Assembly: GCA_023249375.1 (NCBI GenBank)
Contig: JAHFCT010000008.1
Coordinates: forward strand, 1-64,000
Source of the DNA: Gemmatimonadota bacterium
Lineage (GTDB): Bacteria > Gemmatimonadota > Gemmatimonadetes > Gemmatimonadales > Gemmatimonadaceae
Reading direction: 5' to 3'
DNA length: 64,000 nucleotides
Position numbers and translations under genes: made by a program. The notes under the pieces are model-generated. The model ran no database searches, was not told the DNA's origin, and worked only from the letters and a program-made list of their open reading frames with translations. Below are positions 11,848 through 20,216 of the stretch, one piece after another; position 1 is the first letter of the stretch; every line of letters starts with the position of its first letter.

Positions 11848-12279
11848 TCAGGCGATCAGCAGCTTGACGAGCTTCTTGGGCGACTGCGTGAAATCCGCGA
11901 GCGTGTAACGGTCGAGCACCTTGAGGAAGGCATCGAGCGCCTCGTCGAGCGCCGGCGCCAGGCCGCACGAGGGCGCGATGGGGCAGGTGTTCAGTGTCGG
12001 ATCAAAGCACTCGACGAGTCGGAAGTTCTCCTCGGTTTTGCGGATCACGGCGCCGATGTTGATCTTCGCCGGCTCGACGATCATCCGCACGCCACCGCCG
12101 CGCCCGCGCAGCGTCTCCACGTAGCCCAGATGGGCGAGGCGCTGCACGACCTTGACGAGATGATCCTCGCTGAGCGCCATGCGTCGCGCGATGACGCCGA
12201 CGGTCTCGGTTTCGCCCGGATGCAGGGCGAGGTACGTGAGGCAGCGGAGCGCATTGTCGGAAAAGCGGGTCAGATGCAT
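11848..12279 (-). CDS. Rrf2-family regulator, NsrR-like (Fe-S, nitric oxide sensing)
   Basis: The 143 aa protein begins MHLTRFSDNALRCLTYLAL, a standard Rrf2 winged-helix opening, followed by IARRMALSEDHLVKVVQRL and the wing LRGRGGGVRM. Three cysteines, C91, C99 and C105 in CFDPTLNTCPIAPSCGL, match the cluster-binding region of NsrR, whose [4Fe-4S] cluster reacts with nitric oxide. A TTG at 12303 is also in frame; ATG 12279 matches the family start. It is divergent from nosZ, so control of nitrous oxide reduction in response to NO or cluster state is likely. The exact signal is inferred from family. Confidence 0.82.
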   Translation of the reverse strand: MHLTRFSDNALRCLTYLALHPGETETVGVIARRMALSEDHLVKVVQRLAHLGYVETLRGRGGGVRMIVEPAKINIGAVIRKTEENFRLVECFDPTLNTCPIAPSCGLAPALDEALDAFLKVLDRYTLADFTQSPKKLVKLLIA

Positions 12280-12364
12280 CTGGAGGCGGACCTCATCGGG
12301 CAATGAAAGACGCGCGAAGGATACCGGATTCGCAGGGTCGGATGGATCAGCGTTCTTCCCGACA

Positions 12365-12429: not shown

Positions 12430-12533
12430 ACCACATTACTCACGTTCAAGCGAGACCGCCGCGTTTGGTCGCGCCATGCCGCATCTGACCGAGCGCTCGC
12501 CCCACCTCTTCCATGTTCCGTGAGGCTTCATTC

Positions 12534-14552
12534 ATGGCCAACTTCCCGAAGTTCCGTCACGCCGCCAGCGGCATCGCGGTCATGTCGGTGGCGCTGCTCG
12601 CCTTCGCCTGCGCCAAGCGGCCGGCGAACAGTGGTCTGACCACCAGCGAGGCCGCCAAGGCCGTCTATGTTGCGCCCGGACAGTACGACGAGTTCTACGC
12701 GTTCATGTCCGGCGGCTTCAATGGCCAGATCGGCGTGTATGGACTGCCGTCGGGCCGCCGGCTGAAGACCATTCCGGTCTTCTCCCAGTACCCGGAAAAC
12801 GGCTATGGCTACAGCGAAGAGACCAAGCCGATGCTCAACACGAGCTACGGCTTCATTCCGTGGGACGACACGCACCATCCGGCGCTCTCGCAGACCAACG
12901 GCGAAGATGACGGTCGCTGGCTCTTCATTAATGCCAACAACACGCCGCGCATCGCGCGCATCGACCTGACGCGCTTTGAGACGGACGAGATTCTCGAGAT
13001 CCCGAATGCCGGCGGCAATCACGGCTCGCCGTTCATGACGTCGAACAGCGAGTACGTCGTCTCGGCCACGCGCTTCAGCGTGCCGGTGCCGAACACCGAC
13101 GTGCCGATTTCATCGTTCAAGAAGAACTTCCGCGGGCAGATCTCCTTCATCCGCGCCGACCAGCCGGGGAAGATGCGCATCGAGTTCCAAATGCTGATGC
13201 CCGGCTTCAACTACGACCTGGCGCGCGCCGGCAAGGGGAAGAGCGAAGGCTGGTTCTTCTTCTCGATGTACAACACCGAGCAGGCCAATTCGCTGCTCGA
13301 GGTGAACGCCTCGCAGAACGACAAGGACTTCGTCGCCGCCGTGAACTGGAAGATCATCGAGGGCTGCGCGAAGGGCGGCATTCTCAAGAACACCGCCGCG
13401 TCGTACGTGCACAACTTCACAGACGAGTTCACGCGCCAGGCGAAGAGCGAGACGATCACCTCGGTGCCGCAGTTCGAGGCGAAGGAGTGTCCGGGCGCGG
13501 TCTACTTCATGCCGACCCCGAAGTCGCCGCACGGCGCCGACGTGGACCCGACGGGCGAGTACATCGTGGCGGGCGGCAAGCTGGCCTCGGTGATTCCGGT
13601 GCACTCGTTCACCAAGATGCTCAAGGCCATCGAGACGAAGGCCTACGAAGGCGAGATCGACGGCATTCCCGTTCTGAAGTACGACGCGACGCTGGCCGGC
13701 GAGGTGAAGAACCCTGGCCTCGGCCCCCTGCACACCGAGTTCGACGGCAAAGGCTACGCGTACACGTCGTTCTTCATCTCATCGGAAGTCGTGAAGTGGA
13801 AGCTCGGGACCTGGGAAGTCGTCGACCGCGTGCCGACGTACTACTCGGTGGGCCACCTGATGATCCCCGGCGGCGGCACGATGAAGCCGAACCCGAAGTA
13901 CCTGGTGGCGATGGACAAGATCACCAAGGACCGCTACCTGCCCACGGGCCCGGAACTCACGCAGAGCGCTCAGCTCTACGACATCTCGGGCGACAAGATG
14001 AAGCTCCTGCTCGATTTTCCGACCGAGGGCGAGCCGCATTACGCGCAGGCAATCCTGGCGTCGAAGATCAAGGACAAGCAGGTGAAGTTCTTCAAGCTCG
14101 CCGAGAGCAAGGCGGCGATGATGACGCGCTCCGAGAAGGAATCGGGCGTCAGCCGCGACGGGAAGAAGGTGCACGTGCGCATGACGGCCATCCGCTCGCA
14201 CTTCTCGCCCGACAACATCGAAGGCGTGCAAGTGGGTGACACGGTGCTCTTCCACGTCACCAACCTCGAGCAGGACTGGGACGTGCCGCACGGCTTCGCG
14301 GTGATGGGTGCGCAGAACGGCGAGCTGCTCATCATGCCGGGCGAGACGCGCACGCTGCAGTGGGTGCCGCGCAAGGCGGGGATCTACCCGATGTACTGCA
14401 CCGACTTCTGCTCGGCGCTGCACCAGGAAATGCAGGGGTACGTGCGTGTCTCGGCGCCGGGCAGTGGCGTGGCGCTGAGCGGCACGACGTCCAAGGGTCC
14501 GCAGGCGGCCGCGCCAAAGGCGGAAGCCGGCCCGAAGCAGAAGCAGAAGTAG
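12534..14552 (+). CDS. nosZ: Nitrous oxide reductase, clade II (Sec-exported)
   Basis: NosZ reduces N2O to N2 in the periplasm using a CuZ cluster and a CuA electron-entry site. The 672 aa protein starts with a Sec-type signal (hydrophobic core about 12-26) without the twin arginine of clade I enzymes. Histidines for CuZ are visible in DDTHHPALSQ (114-115), NAGGNHGSPF, KSPHGADVDP, LGPLHTEFDG and VGHLMIPGG. The CuA domain has His586 and YCTDFCSALHQEM (Cys622, Cys626, His630, Met633). The C-terminal tail is Lys, Ala and Gln rich. ATG 12534 is preferred to ATG 12513 because TGAGG precedes it. It is the first gene of a nos operon that lacks nosR. Confidence 0.96.
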   Translation: MANFPKFRHAASGIAVMSVALLAFACAKRPANSGLTTSEAAKAVYVAPGQYDEFYAFMSGGFNGQIGVYGLPSGRRLKTIPVFSQYPENGYGYSEETKPMLNTSYGFIPWDDTHHPALSQTNGEDDGRWLFINANNTPRIARIDLTRFETDEILEIPNAGGNHGSPFMTSNSEYVVSATRFSVPVPNTDVPISSFKKNFRGQISFIRADQPGKMRIEFQMLMPGFNYDLARAGKGKSEGWFFFSMYNTEQANSLLEVNASQNDKDFVAAVNWKIIEGCAKGGILKNTAASYVHNFTDEFTRQAKSETITSVPQFEAKECPGAVYFMPTPKSPHGADVDPTGEYIVAGGKLASVIPVHSFTKMLKAIETKAYEGEIDGIPVLKYDATLAGEVKNPGLGPLHTEFDGKGYAYTSFFISSEVVKWKLGTWEVVDRVPTYYSVGHLMIPGGGTMKPNPKYLVAMDKITKDRYLPTGPELTQSAQLYDISGDKMKLLLDFPTEGEPHYAQAILASKIKDKQVKFFKLAESKAAMMTRSEKESGVSRDGKKVHVRMTAIRSHFSPDNIEGVQVGDTVLFHVTNLEQDWDVPHGFAVMGAQNGELLIMPGETRTLQWVPRKAGIYPMYCTDFCSALHQEMQGYVRVSAPGSGVALSGTTSKGPQAAAPKAEAGPKQKQK

Positions 14553-14660: not shown

Positions 14661-15257
14661 GTGCCCAAGACCGCTCGCATTCTCGTTGCCGTCGCCGCGC
14701 TGCTCATGTGCGTCGGCTACGTGCTGCCGCTGTGGCGCGTCAATCTCGTGGCGCCGCAGTATCCCGAGGGCCTTGGCATCCTCATCAAGGTCAACACGGT
14801 GGTGGGGGTGAAGGAGCAGGATCTCAACTCCATCAACAACCTCAACCACTACATCGGCATGAAGCACATCGAACCGGACGCGATTCCGGAGTTGCGCTAT
14901 ATGCCGGCGGTGCTGGGGTGCCTCGTCGTCACGGCACTGCTCATCGCCGCGCTCGGGCGGCGGCGCGTGCTCTACGCCTGGTCCGTCGCCTTTCTCGCGG
15001 TGCTCGTCGCCGGGCTCGTGGACTATTGGAAGTGGGGCTACGACTACGGTCACAACCTCGACATGACGACGGCGATCATCAAGATCCCGGACATGACGTA
15101 TCAGCCGCCGCTGATCGGTTCAAAGCAGCTGCTGAACTTCACCGCGACGTCGTGGCCCGCCTCCGGCGGCTGGGCACTGGTGCTGGCAACGGTTCTCGTC
15201 GCCGTCGCCATCTGGCAGTCGTTCCGTCTCGCCTCGCCGCCGCGTCCGGTCGCGTAG
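14661..15257 (+). CDS. Nos-cluster multi-pass membrane protein of unknown function
   Basis: This 198 aa protein lies between nosZ and nosL. It has an N-terminal hydrophobic segment (ILVAVAALLMCVGYVLPLW), a soluble stretch with the motif LNSINNLNHYIGMKHIEPD, then further membrane segments (VLGCLVVTALLIAALG, WSVAFLAVLVAGLVDYW and a last one near 172-188). A second polar loop holds KIPDMTYQPPLIGSKQLLNF. Membrane proteins of unknown role also accompany other clade II nosZ genes (for example NosB of Wolinella); equivalence is not shown here. The start is GTG 14661. A role in electron supply or copper-centre maturation is possible but unproven. Confidence 0.7.
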   Translation: MPKTARILVAVAALLMCVGYVLPLWRVNLVAPQYPEGLGILIKVNTVVGVKEQDLNSINNLNHYIGMKHIEPDAIPELRYMPAVLGCLVVTALLIAALGRRRVLYAWSVAFLAVLVAGLVDYWKWGYDYGHNLDMTTAIIKIPDMTYQPPLIGSKQLLNFTATSWPASGGWALVLATVLVAVAIWQSFRLASPPRPVA

Positions 15258-15313
15258 CGCGACCTGCTGCACTCTCTCGCCGATCGTCTCCCGTCTTCCC
15301 TTGATCTGACACC

Positions 15314-15772
15314 ATGCGCCGACTCGTCCCCCCGCGTCGCCTTGCCCTGATTGCCGCCGTGTTCCTCGCCGCGTGCCATGCACGCGAGCCGGAGCCGATT
15401 GTGCTCAACGAAGACCAGTGCGGCTATTGCCGCATGACCATCGCCGATGCGCGCTTCGGCGGCGAGGCGATCCTGCCCACGGGGCGCGTGAAGAAGTTCG
15501 ACTCGGCCGAATGTCTCGCGGCGTGGGCGCGCTCTACGCCCGCCGGGCAGCGCGGTGACGTCTTTGTCATCGACCTCCAGCATCCGGGCACGTTTGTGCC
15601 GGCGGCGACCGCCGGCTTTCTCAAGGACGCGATGCTCAAGAGCCCCATGGGCGGCTCGATGCTCGGCTTTGCCGACACCGCACGCGCTGAACAGCAGCGC
15701 ACCGTGCTTGGCGGCCGAGTGATGACCTGGGCGCAGTTGCTGGCTGACAGCGGTACGGCGGGCATGCCGTGA
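15314..15772 (+). CDS. nosL: NosL copper-chaperone lipoprotein
   Basis: NosL is an outer-face lipoprotein that binds Cu(I) and helps deliver copper for NosZ centres. The 152 aa protein has a signal peptide ending in the lipobox FLAAC, so Cys21 would be lipidated. The copper motif DQCGYCRMTI gives Cys36, Cys39 and Met41. The conserved KKFDSAECLAAW and the late SPMGGSMLGF segments are also family features. Its TGA stop overlaps the GTG start of nosD by four bases, so the two are translationally coupled. Confidence 0.94.
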   Translation: MRRLVPPRRLALIAAVFLAACHAREPEPIVLNEDQCGYCRMTIADARFGGEAILPTGRVKKFDSAECLAAWARSTPAGQRGDVFVIDLQHPGTFVPAATAGFLKDAMLKSPMGGSMLGFADTARAEQQRTVLGGRVMTWAQLLADSGTAGMP

Positions 15773-17004
15773 TCGGACGAGGCGTGTTGCTCGCTCTGGC
15801 GCTTGCGCAGCCGACCGCGCGCAACGCGGACCTGACGGTTGGCGCCGGCGGACGGTTTTCGACCATCACCGCCGCGCTGGCCGCGGCGAAGCCGGGTGAC
15901 CGCGTGCTGGTGCGCGCCGGCACGTATCGCGAACCGACGATTGTCGTGCGCACGGAGCGGTTGACGCTCGAGGGCGAGGGCTGGCCGGTGCTCGACGGGC
16001 AGGGCGCGCGCGAGGTGCTGGTGATTGCCGCCGATGACGTGACGGTGCGCGGCATCGTGGCACGCAATACGGGCGTCTCGAACCTCGAGGACCGCGCCGG
16101 CATCCGCGCGCGCAGCGTGCGCAACTGCGTGATCGAGGGCAACCGCCTGCGCGACAACCTCTGGGGGATCTATCTCCAGCAGTCCGCCGACTGCATCGTG
16201 CGCGACAACGACATCGAAGCGCACGGCGTGCGCCAGACGGAGAGCGGCAACGGCATCCACCTGTGGTACTCGCCCGGCGCGCGCGTTGAGCGCAACCACG
16301 TGCGCGGCCAGCGCGACGGCATCTACTTCGAGTTTTCGCCGCACGGCGTGACGCGCGACAACGTGAGCGAGCGCAGCCAGCGCTACGGCCTGCACTTCAT
16401 GTTCAGCGATTCGTGCCGCTACGAGCACAACATCTTCCGCGACAACACGTCCGGTGTGGCGGTGATGTACAGTCGCGGCGTCGTCATCACCGCCAACCGG
16501 TTCGAGCGGTCGTGGGGGAGTGCGGCCTACGGCCTGCTGCTCAAGGACATCATGGGCGGCGAGATCAGCAACAACACGTTCGACCGCAACTCGACGGGGC
16601 TCTTTGTCGAGGGATCGTCCCGTCTCGACGTGCGCGGCAACGTCTTCTCGCAGAACGGCTGGGCCGCCAAGGTGCTCGCCGACGCCGACGAAAACCGCTT
16701 CAGCGGCAATCAGTTCACCGGCAACGCGTTCGACGTCACCACCAACTCGCGCAGCGCCAACTCGACCTTCGACGGCAACTGGTGGGATGAGTACGCCGGC
16801 TACGACCTGAACCGCGACGGTGTGGGCGATACGGCGTTCCATCCGGTGAGGCTCTTCGCGCTCGTGGTGGAGGAGCATCCCGCGGCGCTGCTCCTGCTGC
16901 GCAGTCCCCTTGTTTCGATTCTCGATGCCGCCGAACGCGTGCTTCCGGTGCTCACGCCCGAGGCGCTTGTTGACCGGCACCCTCTCATGCGTCCCCCCCG
17001 ATGA
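15769..17004 (+). CDS. nosD: NosD periplasmic copper-centre maturation protein
   Basis: NosD is a periplasmic parallel beta-helix protein that works with the NosFY transporter to mature the CuZ cluster of NosZ. The 411 aa product has a short signal region, then repeated right-handed helix turns with recurring N-rich rungs: NCVIEGNRLRDNLWGIYL, DCIVRDNDIEAHG, GNGIHLWYSPGARVERNHV, EISNNTFDRNSTGLFVEG. Family-typical segments are NGIHLWYSPG, YGLHFMFSDSCRYEHNIF and WWDEYAGYDLNRDGVGD. Start is GTG 15769 overlapping the nosL stop; the stop overlaps the nosF ATG. Confidence 0.95.
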   Translation: MIGRGVLLALALAQPTARNADLTVGAGGRFSTITAALAAAKPGDRVLVRAGTYREPTIVVRTERLTLEGEGWPVLDGQGAREVLVIAADDVTVRGIVARNTGVSNLEDRAGIRARSVRNCVIEGNRLRDNLWGIYLQQSADCIVRDNDIEAHGVRQTESGNGIHLWYSPGARVERNHVRGQRDGIYFEFSPHGVTRDNVSERSQRYGLHFMFSDSCRYEHNIFRDNTSGVAVMYSRGVVITANRFERSWGSAAYGLLLKDIMGGEISNNTFDRNSTGLFVEGSSRLDVRGNVFSQNGWAAKVLADADENRFSGNQFTGNAFDVTTNSRSANSTFDGNWWDEYAGYDLNRDGVGDTAFHPVRLFALVVEEHPAALLLLRSPLVSILDAAERVLPVLTPEALVDRHPLMRPPR

Positions 17005-17786
17005 TCACGCTCGACACCATCCGCAAACGCTTCGGCGCTCTCGAGGTGCTGCAGGACGTTTCGCTCGCCGTGCGTCCGGGCGCCGTGACGGCGCTCGTCG
17101 GTCCCAACGGGTCTGGCAAGACGACGCTCATCAAGATCGTCCTTGGCCTCACGCGCGCCGACCACGGCGCGCTCCACGTGGACGGCAAGCTCGCCGATGA
17201 CGCCGGCGCGTACCGCCGCGCCATCGGCTACATGCCGCAGGCCGCGCATTTCCCCGTGAACCTGCGTGTCGGCGACGTGCTTGACCTCGTCTCGCAGCTG
17301 CGTCCGGGCGAACGCATCGACGACGACCTCGCCCGCGCCTTCGCGATGGACGAGGTGAAGGACAAGCTCGTCGGCACGCTCTCGGGCGGCACCAGGCAAA
17401 AGGTGAATGCGGTCATCGCCTTCATGTTCCGCCCGTCGCTGTTGATTCTTGATGAGCCGACAGCTGGGCTCGACCCGCTGTCGTCGAACGTGCTGAAAGA
17501 GAAGATTCGCGCCGTGCGCGGCGAGGGGCGCTCCGTCCTCGTGACGTCGCACATCATGGCAGAGCTTGAATCGCTGGCTGATGACGTCGCGTTCTTGTGT
17601 GACGGGCGGCTCCGTTTCTCGGGATCGGTGGCCGAGCTCCTTGGCCACACCGGCGGCAGTTCACTCGAGGATGCGATTGCTTCGCTCATGCGCACCGAGC
17701 GTTCGGTGCGCCGCTCCGTCGGCGAACTCCCCGGCCCCGTGGTCGCGCCGCCGTGGTTTGCGCCGCAGCCCAAGGGGGCCATATGA
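17001..17786 (+). CDS. nosF: NosF ABC-transporter ATPase
   Basis: NosF is the cytoplasmic ATPase of the NosDFY maturation system. The 261 aa protein has Walker A GPNGSGKTTLIK, a Q-loop in YMPQAAHFP, the signature LSGGTRQKV, Walker B LLILDEPTAGLDP and the H-loop LVTSHIM. ATG 17001 overlaps the nosD stop and its TGA overlaps nosY's ATG, so the three are tightly coupled. The last 30 residues, rich in Pro and Ala, extend past the core domain. Confidence 0.94.
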   Translation: MITLDTIRKRFGALEVLQDVSLAVRPGAVTALVGPNGSGKTTLIKIVLGLTRADHGALHVDGKLADDAGAYRRAIGYMPQAAHFPVNLRVGDVLDLVSQLRPGERIDDDLARAFAMDEVKDKLVGTLSGGTRQKVNAVIAFMFRPSLLILDEPTAGLDPLSSNVLKEKIRAVRGEGRSVLVTSHIMAELESLADDVAFLCDGRLRFSGSVAELLGHTGGSSLEDAIASLMRTERSVRRSVGELPGPVVAPPWFAPQPKGAI

Positions 17787-18571
17787 ACGTCGTCTCCCTC
17801 GTGCTGCAGGCTGGGCTGCGCGACCTCTCACGCAACCGCTGGATTGTGGCCTACACGCTCTGTTTCCTCGGCATTGCCGAAGGACTGTTCTGGTTCGGCG
17901 GCACCGGACCGCAGGTGCTGCTGAGCCTGCTCAACCTCGTGCTGCTCGTGCTGCCGCTTGTCGCGCTCGTCTTCGGCACCATTCACGTGTACGCGTCGCG
18001 CGAGTTCGTCGAACTGCTGCTCGCGCAGCCGGTGCCGCGCCGTCAGCTCTTCACTGGCCTGTACCTCGGCCTCGCGCTGCCGCTCGCCGGCGCGTTCGTG
18101 CTCGGAGCGGGAATCCCGTTCGCCGTGCATGCGCGCGAGGGTGCGTCACTCGGCGGTGTCGTCGCGCTGCTCTGCGCCGGCGTCGGTCTGTCGCTTGCCT
18201 TTGCCGCCATCGCCACCTGGATCGCGTTGCGCACGGACGACCGGCTGAAAGGCATCGGACTCGCACTTGGCGCATGGCTCGCCGCGACGGTTGTCTACGA
18301 CGGTCTCGTGCTTGGCGCCGCAGCCGCGTTCGGCAACTATCCGCTCGAACGGCCGCTGCTCGCACTCATGCTCGCGAATCCTGTGGACGTGGCGCGCGTG
18401 CTCGTCCTCACGCAACTCGACGTGTCGGCCCTGATGGGATACACGGGGGCACTCTTCGAGCGCACGTTTGGCACCGTGCTCGGCACCGGCGTCGCCGCCG
18501 CTGCGTTGATCATCTGGTGCGCTGTGCCGCTCGGTCTCGCCGAGCGCCGTTTTACCCGCCGCGACTTCTAA
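17783..18571 (+). CDS. nosY: NosY ABC-transporter permease
   Basis: NosY is the membrane partner of NosF; the complex is thought to supply a sulfur species or otherwise drive CuZ assembly. The 262 aa protein has about six membrane segments, an N-terminal amphipathic helix (LVLQAGLRDLSRNRW), and the loop REFVELLLAQPVPRRQLF, which resembles the ABC-2 permease coupling region. ATG 17783 is preferred over a longer reading from 17753 because AAGGGGG precedes it and it overlaps the nosF stop. Confidence 0.9.
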   Translation: MNVVSLVLQAGLRDLSRNRWIVAYTLCFLGIAEGLFWFGGTGPQVLLSLLNLVLLVLPLVALVFGTIHVYASREFVELLLAQPVPRRQLFTGLYLGLALPLAGAFVLGAGIPFAVHAREGASLGGVVALLCAGVGLSLAFAAIATWIALRTDDRLKGIGLALGAWLAATVVYDGLVLGAAAAFGNYPLERPLLALMLANPVDVARVLVLTQLDVSALMGYTGALFERTFGTVLGTGVAAAALIIWCAVPLGLAERRFTRRDF

Positions 18572-18602
18572 CCGCTGTCCTCTCCCCCGTCAGGAGCTTT
18601 CC

Positions 18603-19055
18603 ATGCGTCATCCCGTTCGCTTTGCTCTCGCCTCCGTGCTCGTCGCCGCCGCGTGCAGCGGCAGTGAGAAACCGGCCGACAACATGGCCAACATGCCGAT
18701 GCCCAGCGCGACGGCCACCATCAATGGCCCCATCGAGCCGAAGGCCGGCGGCAAGGTCATCGAGATCACGATGACGTCCGACGACAAGGGCAACTACTTC
18801 ACGCCCAACACCATCGAAGCCAACCCGGGCGACGTGCTGCGCTACAAGCTCACCCTCGGCGTACACAACGTGAACTTCCTCGCCGATTCGAACGCGGGAA
18901 AGACCGGACTGCCGCCGGCGAGCGCTCTGCTGCAGCTGCCAGGACAGACGCACGACATCGCCGTCAGCTTCGCCGAGGGGACCTACTACTTCCAGTGTGA
19001 TCCACACGCCGCGCTGGGCATGCGTGGTCACCTGACGGTCGCCGCGAAGAAGTAA
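18603..19055 (+). CDS. Cupredoxin lipoprotein at the end of the nos operon
   Basis: A 150 aa exported blue-copper-type protein. The lipobox VAAAC makes Cys18 the lipid anchor. A Met-rich linker follows (NMANMPMP), then a plastocyanin-like domain (about 50-148). Type 1 copper ligands are visible: His88 in LGVHNVNF and Cys132, His135 and Met140 in FQCDPHAALGM. It begins 31 bases after nosY in the same direction and precedes a strong hairpin, so it is probably the last operon gene. Such proteins usually carry electrons. Since no nos cytochrome or NosR is nearby, it is a candidate donor to the CuA site of NosZ; copper delivery is an alternative. Confidence 0.85.
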   Translation: MRHPVRFALASVLVAAACSGSEKPADNMANMPMPSATATINGPIEPKAGGKVIEITMTSDDKGNYFTPNTIEANPGDVLRYKLTLGVHNVNFLADSNAGKTGLPPASALLQLPGQTHDIAVSFAEGTYYFQCDPHAALGMRGHLTVAAKK

Positions 19056-19060
19056 TGCAC

Positions 19061-19087
19061 CGCCGTTTCGCCAAAGGCGGAACGGCG
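19061..19087 (+). terminator. Hairpin ending the nos operon
   Basis: A 12-bp stem with one G-T pair and an AAA loop (CGCCGTTTCGCC and GGCGGAACGGCG) starts 5 bases after the cupredoxin stop. No T tract follows, so it may stop or stabilise transcripts rather than act as a classical intrinsic terminator. Confidence 0.55.
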
Positions 19088-19166
19088 CAGCACCGAAGGT
19101 GAGCTCGCTGGCAGTTGACCGGCGTTCGCCGTCAGATCCGGGGGGACACCTGGCTGCGGCGTCCGG

Positions 19167-20216
19167 TTAGCTGCCAGCGCTCGCGTAGGTGTCCTTCCAG
19201 CGCTGCACACGGTCGAGCACGTCGCGCACGCTGATGCGCGCCATGCGGTCGCGCCGGTTTTCCATCGAGACCGGGTAGTCTTCGCCCGGCTCGCCATACG
19301 CGTCGATCATCAAGTCGCGGAACTTGCGATACGGTCCCACGCGCTTTGGATTCGAGTAGCCGATGAGCGAAATCACCGGACGGTCCAGCGCCACGCTGAT
19401 GTGCAGCGGCCCCGTGTCGGGGGAGAGCACGAGTGCCGCGGCATCGAAGATGCCGACGAGTCCGCGCAGCCCGCCCTGGCCTAGTGCGCTCGCCGGCGCG
19501 GTGCGCGCCCGCTCGATGATCACGTGCTCGGCGTGCAGTTCACGCGGCGTGCGGCCGCCGACCAGCACGGGCTGCAGCCCGAAATCGCCTGCCAGCGCAT
19601 CGCACACTTCGGCCCAGCGTTCGGGAAGCCAGTCCTTCTGCGCCTTGCTCGTTGCGACGACGATGGGAGCAATGGGCCGGTCAAAGCGTGCCACGAACTC
19701 GCGCTGCCACGCGCGCTCGGCGTCGTTCCAGGGCGCGAGTCCCCACGTCACGGGTTCGTGTGGAATGCCGAGCCACTCCGTGAACTCGAAGTACTGGTCC
19801 TGCACGTGCTGCATGGCCCGCGCCCGCACGCGGTCGGTCGTGAAGAGCCAATTGAAGTCGCGGGCCCGCGCGAGATCAAAGCCCAGCTTGACCGGCGCCG
19901 TCGTGAAGCCCGTAATGACGCCGGCCTTGAAGTAGACCTGCAGGTTGAGCACGACGTCGAACGCGCGGGCGCGAAGCTGATGGCGGACTTCGAAAAAGCC
20001 GGCCACGCCTTTGGTGCGGTCAAAGAGAATGATCTCGTCCACCAGCGCATGGCCGCGCACCAGCGTGGCCGGCCCGGGCTGCAGCACCCACGTGATGTGC
20101 GCCGACGGCCGCTGGCGCTTGATGGCGCTGATGACCGGCAGTACGTGCACGGCATCGCCCACCGCGCTCATCATCACGATGCAGACGCGTTCGAGCGGCT
20201 CGAACGGCGCGCGCAT
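19167..20216 (-). CDS. Family 9 glycosyltransferase (heptosyltransferase-like)
   Basis: The 349 aa protein resembles ADP-heptose:LPS heptosyltransferases, which add heptose to the LPS inner core at the cytoplasmic face of the inner membrane. It starts with RVCIVMMSAVGDAVHVLPVI, the family GDxxxxxP region, has a middle PVKLGFDLARARDFNW, and the donor-site motifs SKAQKDWLPERWAEV and LSPDTGPLHISVALDRPVI followed by YSNPKRVGPY. ATG 20216 shares one base with the stop of the kinase gene upstream. The acceptor sugar cannot be read from the sequence. Confidence 0.85.
   Translation of the reverse strand: MRAPFEPLERVCIVMMSAVGDAVHVLPVISAIKRQRPSAHITWVLQPGPATLVRGHALVDEIILFDRTKGVAGFFEVRHQLRARAFDVVLNLQVYFKAGVITGFTTAPVKLGFDLARARDFNWLFTTDRVRARAMQHVQDQYFEFTEWLGIPHEPVTWGLAPWNDAERAWQREFVARFDRPIAPIVVATSKAQKDWLPERWAEVCDALAGDFGLQPVLVGGRTPRELHAEHVIIERARTAPASALGQGGLRGLVGIFDAAALVLSPDTGPLHISVALDRPVISLIGYSNPKRVGPYRKFRDLMIDAYGEPGEDYPVSMENRRDRMARISVRDVLDRVQRWKDTYASAGS

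Follow-up and report, generated by a model that had tools for sequence, protein, structure and literature searches.

The window, by which we mean the whole stretch of 64,000 nucleotides that was analysed, contains a nos operon in which a divergent Rrf2 gene is followed by nosZ, a nosB-like membrane gene, nosL, nosD, nosF, nosY and a cupredoxin gene, with a convergent glycosyltransferase gene behind it (Table 1). This order, with nosY before the cupredoxin and the convergent gene after it, confirms that the cupredoxin ends the operon, as the sequence-only reading had proposed. NosZ exceeds the cut-off of the Sec-type model and is the single match in the window's genome; judging from its N-terminus, it may itself be anchored in the membrane. 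A nosB-like gene comes after nosZ in most relatives.

Table 1. Features of the nos operon and its downstream end (positions in the window).
Feature	Positions	Strand	Evidence
Rrf2-family regulator, divergent	11848..12303	-	PF02082, 108.4 bits
nosZ, Sec-type (clade II), lipobox-like LAFAC33; alternative ATG 12534	12513..14552	+	TIGR04246, 926.5 bits (cut-off 625)
nosB-like membrane protein	14661..15257	+	no Pfam/NCBIfam match; named by position only
nosL, CxxCxM motif (CGYCRM)	15314..15772	+	PF05573, 47.3 bits
nosD	15769..17004	+	TIGR04247, 434 bits
nosF, ABC ATPase	17001..17786	+	PF00005
nosY, ABC permease	17753..18571	+	PF12679; position and homology in relatives
Cupredoxin lipoprotein, last gene of the nos operon	18603..19055	+	PF00127 (Pfam), 43.9 bits (cut-off 21.2), E 3.4e-11; AlphaFold2, plastocyanin fold
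Lipoprotein leader M1-C18, common to cytochrome c genes of sisters	18603..18656	+	44, 41 and 39/54 nt identity
His88, type 1 Cu ligand	18864..18866	+	invariant 25/25
Cys132, His135, Met140: C-x2-H-x4-M ligand loop	18996..19022	+	invariant 25/25
No DNA match to cytochrome-bearing sisters: exchanged mature domain and ~50 bp past the stop	18667..19104	+	blastn
Hairpin directly after the stop codon, terminator-like, no T run	19056..19092	+	fold -25.6 kcal/mol
Conserved structured non-coding element (stem-loop) after the carrier slot	19101..19182		-56.1 kcal/mol, z -6.66

A gap of 31 bp separates the nosY stop codon from the cupredoxin gene, which has CAGGAGC upstream of its ATG and whose product of 150 aa matches PF00127 above the cut-off. 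The type 1 ligands named in the sequence-only reading, His88, Cys132, His135 and Met140, were found at exactly these residues and, together with C18, are invariant in all 25 sequences of an alignment comprising the window and 24 of the 26 loci from a scan of public genomes. C18 is the lipobox cysteine of the leader MRHPVRFALASVLVAAAC, in line with the lipid anchor predicted earlier. An AlphaFold2 model of the cupredoxin domain (mean pLDDT 95.9), searched with Foldseek against the PDB, gave plastocyanins as the best matches, with 27-33% identity among the best twelve. The protein stays under the NCBIfam equivalog cut-offs for plastocyanin (TIGR02656, 49.5 bits against 87.85) and pseudoazurin (TIGR02375, 25 bits against 109.85) and under the cut-off for halocyanin (TIGR03102, 22 bits against 93.8), and we therefore describe it as a plastocyanin-like cupredoxin of no named subfamily. 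The 150-aa sequence contains no CxxCH heme motif. We infer that the protein binds copper and is redox-active.

In the scan of public genomes, 25 of the 26 loci with relatives of the cupredoxin adjoin nos genes, the remaining one being a fragment at a contig end; at two of these loci the gene lies before nosZ and not after nosY. A profile search of 395 genomes of the phylum retrieved 52 genomes with scores of at least 119 bits, followed by a gap down to 110; since the cupredoxin-domain profile was built from 22 rows, all nos-linked, this count is biased towards such relatives. Fifty-one of the 52 family members lie at nos genes. The exception, in G311 (L171, 8414, + strand, 128.5 bits), is away from nos, and no NosZ match in its genome exceeds the cut-off. 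The question raised earlier, whether the protein is always linked to nosZ, can thus be answered in one direction for all family members except that of G311, but not in the other, as many nosZ loci carry a cytochrome instead. A truncated extra copy in G218 (L033) also follows nosY. Three of 72,556 plasmid records matched, one of them from Gemmatirosa: in Gemmatirosa kalamazoonensis a nos operon with this cupredoxin (L105) is found on a 1.1 Mb plasmid record, NZ_CP007129.1, near 528805. A second group of lipoprotein cupredoxins, unrelated to nos, occurs in one family (f6; L174, L175, L180-L184), mostly close to a gene of 98 aa and to another that was read by eye as phosphofructokinase-like.

To define what occupies the place of the cupredoxin in other clusters, we considered a carrier slot, after nosY or before nosZ, within the single phylum Gemmatimonadota. 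All 128 nosZ places over the cut-off in 125 genomes (the window's excluded) and six of the partial matches gave 134 nosZ-anchored neighbourhoods; a further six, centred on cupredoxins whose contigs lack nosZ, bring the set to 140 neighbourhoods (L031-L170), in which gene calls and leaders are mechanical. The slot contains a cupredoxin in 51 neighbourhoods, a c-type cytochrome in 65, both in none and neither in three, and is cut off by contig ends in 21; for the 134 nosZ-anchored neighbourhoods taken separately, the numbers are 45, 65, 0, 3 and 21. For four of the 21 cut-off cases (L061, L089, L115, L155), the 51 include a cupredoxin from another contig of that genome. The cupredoxins are placed after nosY (40) or before nosZ (10), plus L169, where a weak cytochrome match lies several genes away. 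The cytochromes comprise 37 of type B before nosZ, 16 of type A after nosY, six of type C, L133, L152 and four others read by eye (L134, L139, L144, L148); three of type C (L085, L097, L099) are neighbours of the nos genes but not simple co-directional operon members. By its position, the cupredoxin fills the place of the small c-type cytochrome (the NosC position) of other nos clusters of the phylum. Genome-wide, the type A cytochrome gave 20 matches of at least 164 bits (next score 138) in 19 of the 395 genomes, and these 19 include none of the 52 with cupredoxin; weaker relatives, at 138 bits or less, turn up in some of the 52, for instance G008, G154 and G139. In G205, no carrier follows nosY, a type A cytochrome lies elsewhere in the genome and the upstream side is cut off. 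The copper and heme carriers alike are predicted lipoproteins: of the proteins scored, 48 of 49 cupredoxins, all 16 type A cytochromes and 32 of 37 of type B show a lipobox pattern.

The NosZ tree, a quick tree of 124 rows, includes 109 rows with a known carrier, 46 with cupredoxin and 63 with cytochrome. Loci without a NosZ call (7 of 140), NosZ sequences shorter than 560 aa (10) and the divergent L152 were left out, the window and L004 were added, and for L061, L089 and L115 the carrier was taken from the second contig of the same genome. At least 13 changes between cupredoxin and cytochrome are required on the 109 rows, 12 of them forced by starred branches, compared to an average of 35 when labels are shuffled. 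Leaving out the three doubtful cytochromes, which are not co-directional neighbours, reduces this to 12 changes on 106 rows, 11 of them forced, and a carefully built tree centred on the downstream-slot clade, in which 51 of 55 rows have a known carrier, gave 11. As judged from these trees, the two kinds of carrier have been exchanged at least 12-13 times in Gemmatimonadota nos clusters. Sister rows at full support with different carriers are L090/L070 and L073/L085, where L085 is among the doubtful cytochromes. Close natural copper/heme pairs exist for direct comparison. A search for covariation of NosZ with donor type, covering 369 column classes in nine independent pairs and hence of low power, yielded nothing significant, with a largest mean excess of 3.9 pairs. 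A lipobox-like pattern occurs within the first 75 aa of 98 of the 124 NosZ rows, several of the misses being truncated gene calls.

One such exchange can be followed within the window's genus. In blastn comparisons with five cytochrome-bearing members, identity to the window DNA is 77-82% up to and including nosY; for four of them the alignment extends through the cupredoxin leader and ends at 18656-18666, and for L043 it ends at 18610. The match resumes at 19105 or 19106 with 84-86%. As a control, the cupredoxin-bearing sister L044 matches without a break from 18000 to 19800, and L054 matches to 19052. Because the DNA match breaks inside the gene while the leader is kept, we conclude that in this genus the mature carrier domain was replaced behind a retained leader, whichever way the exchange went. 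The 54-nt leader shares 44 positions with the cytochrome leader of L051, 41 with that of L057 and 39 with that of L050, whereas 216 other lipoprotein leaders used as a null reach at best 36, with a mean of 22.1 and 33 for the best cupredoxin leader among them. Elsewhere, 14 cupredoxin/cytochrome pairs were named and 11 were testable, none being clearly above the null (nearest L054/L051, fraction 0.007, and L077/L075, 0.014); the leader argument accordingly rests on the window's gene, and the step is documented once.

Considering these observations, the protein is very probably a membrane-tethered type 1 copper electron carrier that supplies the CuA centre of NosZ, the enzyme of its own operon, with electrons. 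This function had been suggested from the sequence, and it draws support from the nos linkage, from the cytochrome in the same slot of relatives and from the at least 12-13 exchanges. Copper and heme carriers have little in common besides electron transfer; as a heme protein is no copper chaperone and yet fills the same slot, delivering electrons to NosZ is the simplest function that both could share. The tethered cupredoxin would take electrons from a quinol-oxidising complex, and the reduced cupredoxin would then reduce CuA. We infer NosZ as the acceptor and a quinol-oxidising complex as the donor; the window's genome has matches to ActD (the alternative-complex-III marker) and to Rieske proteins, either of which could belong to the source. 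Several findings count against a donor function: no carrier is in view at three nos loci (L045, L065, L092); the mean net domain charge differs between cupredoxins (-4.5) and cytochromes of type A (+0.2) and type B (-1.6); and at the cupredoxin locus L081 (G030), a 216-aa membrane-like protein with one CxxCH, encoded 268 bp after the cupredoxin (14984-15635 as oriented), is unlike the carrier cytochromes. On the same side stand the absence of any NosZ residue class that follows donor type (in a comparison of low power), the weaker type A relatives in some cupredoxin genomes, the family member of G311 away from nos, and the NosL-less loci, where a copper role may exist.

Pseudoazurins serve several partners, and the genome's COX1-type, Rieske and ActD matches show that partners other than NosZ exist, so the cupredoxin could be a general periplasmic electron carrier for oxidases and other enzymes that merely lies beside nos genes. 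Its near-exclusive place at nos clusters and its exchange in step with the nos cytochromes make this very unlikely, and the two further PF00127 proteins of the window's genome are both located elsewhere. The pattern of exchange could also arise from mixed metagenome assemblies, given the short length of many contigs and the fact that the genomes of many named relatives were assembled from metagenomes. We regard this as barely conceivable: carrier and nosZ share one contig in all but a few cases, and both carrier types are found on large contigs, the cupredoxin in G019 (4.64 Mb) and the cytochrome in G128 (3.26 Mb), as well as on the Gemmatirosa record.

The sequence-only reading had offered a copper carrier for NosZ assembly as an alternative to the electron carrier, that is, a cupredoxin delivering copper to CuA or CuZ during NosZ maturation. 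The protein is an anchored copper protein within a nos operon, and NosL, the dedicated copper chaperone for CuZ according to the available portion of PMC6530538, is rarer beside cupredoxins (by locus, 21 with and 20 without, versus 39 and 8 beside cytochromes, Fisher p 0.0025; by tree row, 24 and 22 versus 47 and 16, Fisher p 0.025; both uncorrected for kinship). In the downstream-slot clade, 17 of 37 cupredoxin rows lack NosL, or 16 if the second contig of G169 (L170) is credited to L115, and all 22 cytochrome rows have it. Nevertheless, the association between NosL and carrier is not significant in independent pairs, six of the seven parsimony changes of NosL in this clade fall on cupredoxin branches and one leads to a cytochrome row (a P of 0.034, calculated for seven of seven, does not apply), and NosL is missing as well from 16 of the 63 cytochrome rows when the tree is taken as a whole. 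At least 12 of the changes on the tree put a heme protein in place of the cupredoxin or the reverse, the window has its own NosL, and the complete His2-Cys-Met type 1 site, which is usual for electron transfer, speaks for that function and not for a copper carrier. Copper delivery by the window's protein is thus disfavoured and appears distinctly unlikely, whereas in the NosL-less relatives of the downstream-slot clade a copper role may exist, which we note as a lead. NosL as a strict partner was also considered and set aside, being suggestive in one clade and not significant by independent pairs. Among 20 genomes checked for NosL, it was found in 3 of 12 with cupredoxin, 7 of 7 with cytochrome and 0 of 1 without nosZ; these were chosen partly for a NosL-less locus and are no independent test. 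Among the carrier-typed rows of the downstream-slot clade, clusters that lack nosL, from genomes with no Pfam NosL match, always carry the cupredoxin (16 of 37, against 0 of 22 with cytochrome), e.g. L046, L063, L090 and L116.

The electron-carrier function is in line with several known systems. In the clade II nos clusters of Bacillus azotoformans, Wolinella succinogenes and Methylacidiphilum caldifontis (nosCZBLDFYC), NosC is a c-type cytochrome, described in the accessible sections of PMC3475470 and PMC11102522 as a predicted electron carrier to NosZ. According to such partial accounts, it occupies the same positions, before nosZ in Bacillus and both before nosZ and after nosY in Methylacidiphilum, and in Bacillus it is a predicted lipoprotein, resembling the cupredoxin with its lipobox leader; NosC, however, is a heme protein, whereas the window's protein has a type 1 copper site and lacks CxxCH. 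In Haloferax mediterranei, the small blue copper protein pcy, plastocyanin/azurin-like, is likewise encoded beside nosZ, immediately upstream, and was proposed as the NosZ donor after proteomics (PMC7754194); this system is archaeal, and the parts of PMC7754194 covered describe no exchange with cytochromes. In Paracoccus denitrificans, pseudoazurin and cytochrome c550 both feed one NosZ, as reported in excerpts of PMC6530538 and PMC6274584, showing that the enzyme can be fed by both donor types; there both carriers occur in one organism, whereas in Gemmatimonadota one or the other is present at the nos locus. In photosynthesis, the type 1 copper protein plastocyanin and the c-type heme protein cytochrome c6 interchange before one acceptor (PMC13036084, in the part available). 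The modelled cupredoxin fold appears closest to plastocyanin, which adds to the likeness, but the acceptor is another one, identity is 27-33% among the best twelve fold matches, the protein carries a lipid anchor, and the genes are exchanged within one operon slot between species.

The comparison names a candidate electron carrier for NosZ and shows that copper and heme carriers replace each other in one operon. It parallels the exchange of plastocyanin and cytochrome c6, here in the respiratory chain of N2O, where the enzyme has a high copper demand of its own. The greenhouse gas N2O has its known biological sink in N2O reductase. Gemmatimonadota are abundant in agricultural soil, as stated in the abstract of PMC9530729, which also gives Gemmatimonas aurantiaca as an N2O reducer. 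Among the matches listed, open-licence titles and abstract beginnings mentioned neither a nos-cluster cupredoxin of Gemmatimonadota nor its replacement by cytochromes or the reverse, the literature searched did not give the electron source of Gemmatimonadota NosZ, and cupredoxin, cytochrome and operon are among six words that do not occur in the main text of the paper on N2O in G. aurantiaca.

The structured element downstream of the carrier gene, which sits between it and the convergent glycosyltransferase gene, has 87-92% identity over 81-96 nt in six genus members, with a 49-nt part only in L054. The core of its stem-loop, TCCGGGGGGACACC, is invariant in eight aligned rows and occurs once in the genome. 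At the operon end, no Rfam family exceeded its gathering score, Mcr7 at 13.8 bits (gathering score 380) being at chance level. We tentatively propose, as a possibility that we consider open to considerable doubt, that the nos operon of Gemmatimonadota has an exchange slot in which recombination via the conserved leader and the conserved downstream element would swap only the mature domain; lineages could then alternate between copper and iron carriers for their NosZ, perhaps along with the supply of these metals, and where NosL is missing the copper carrier may also help to supply copper to NosZ.

Two further arrangements of nosZ were observed in the survey. In L144 (G196), two genes lie ahead of nosZ, one cytochrome-b-like and the other with five CxxCH motifs; the pair possibly encodes a dedicated quinol-to-NosZ complex. 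The genome bin G376 contains three nosZ places (L080, L152, L154), of which L152 is very divergent and is followed by a type B cytochrome.
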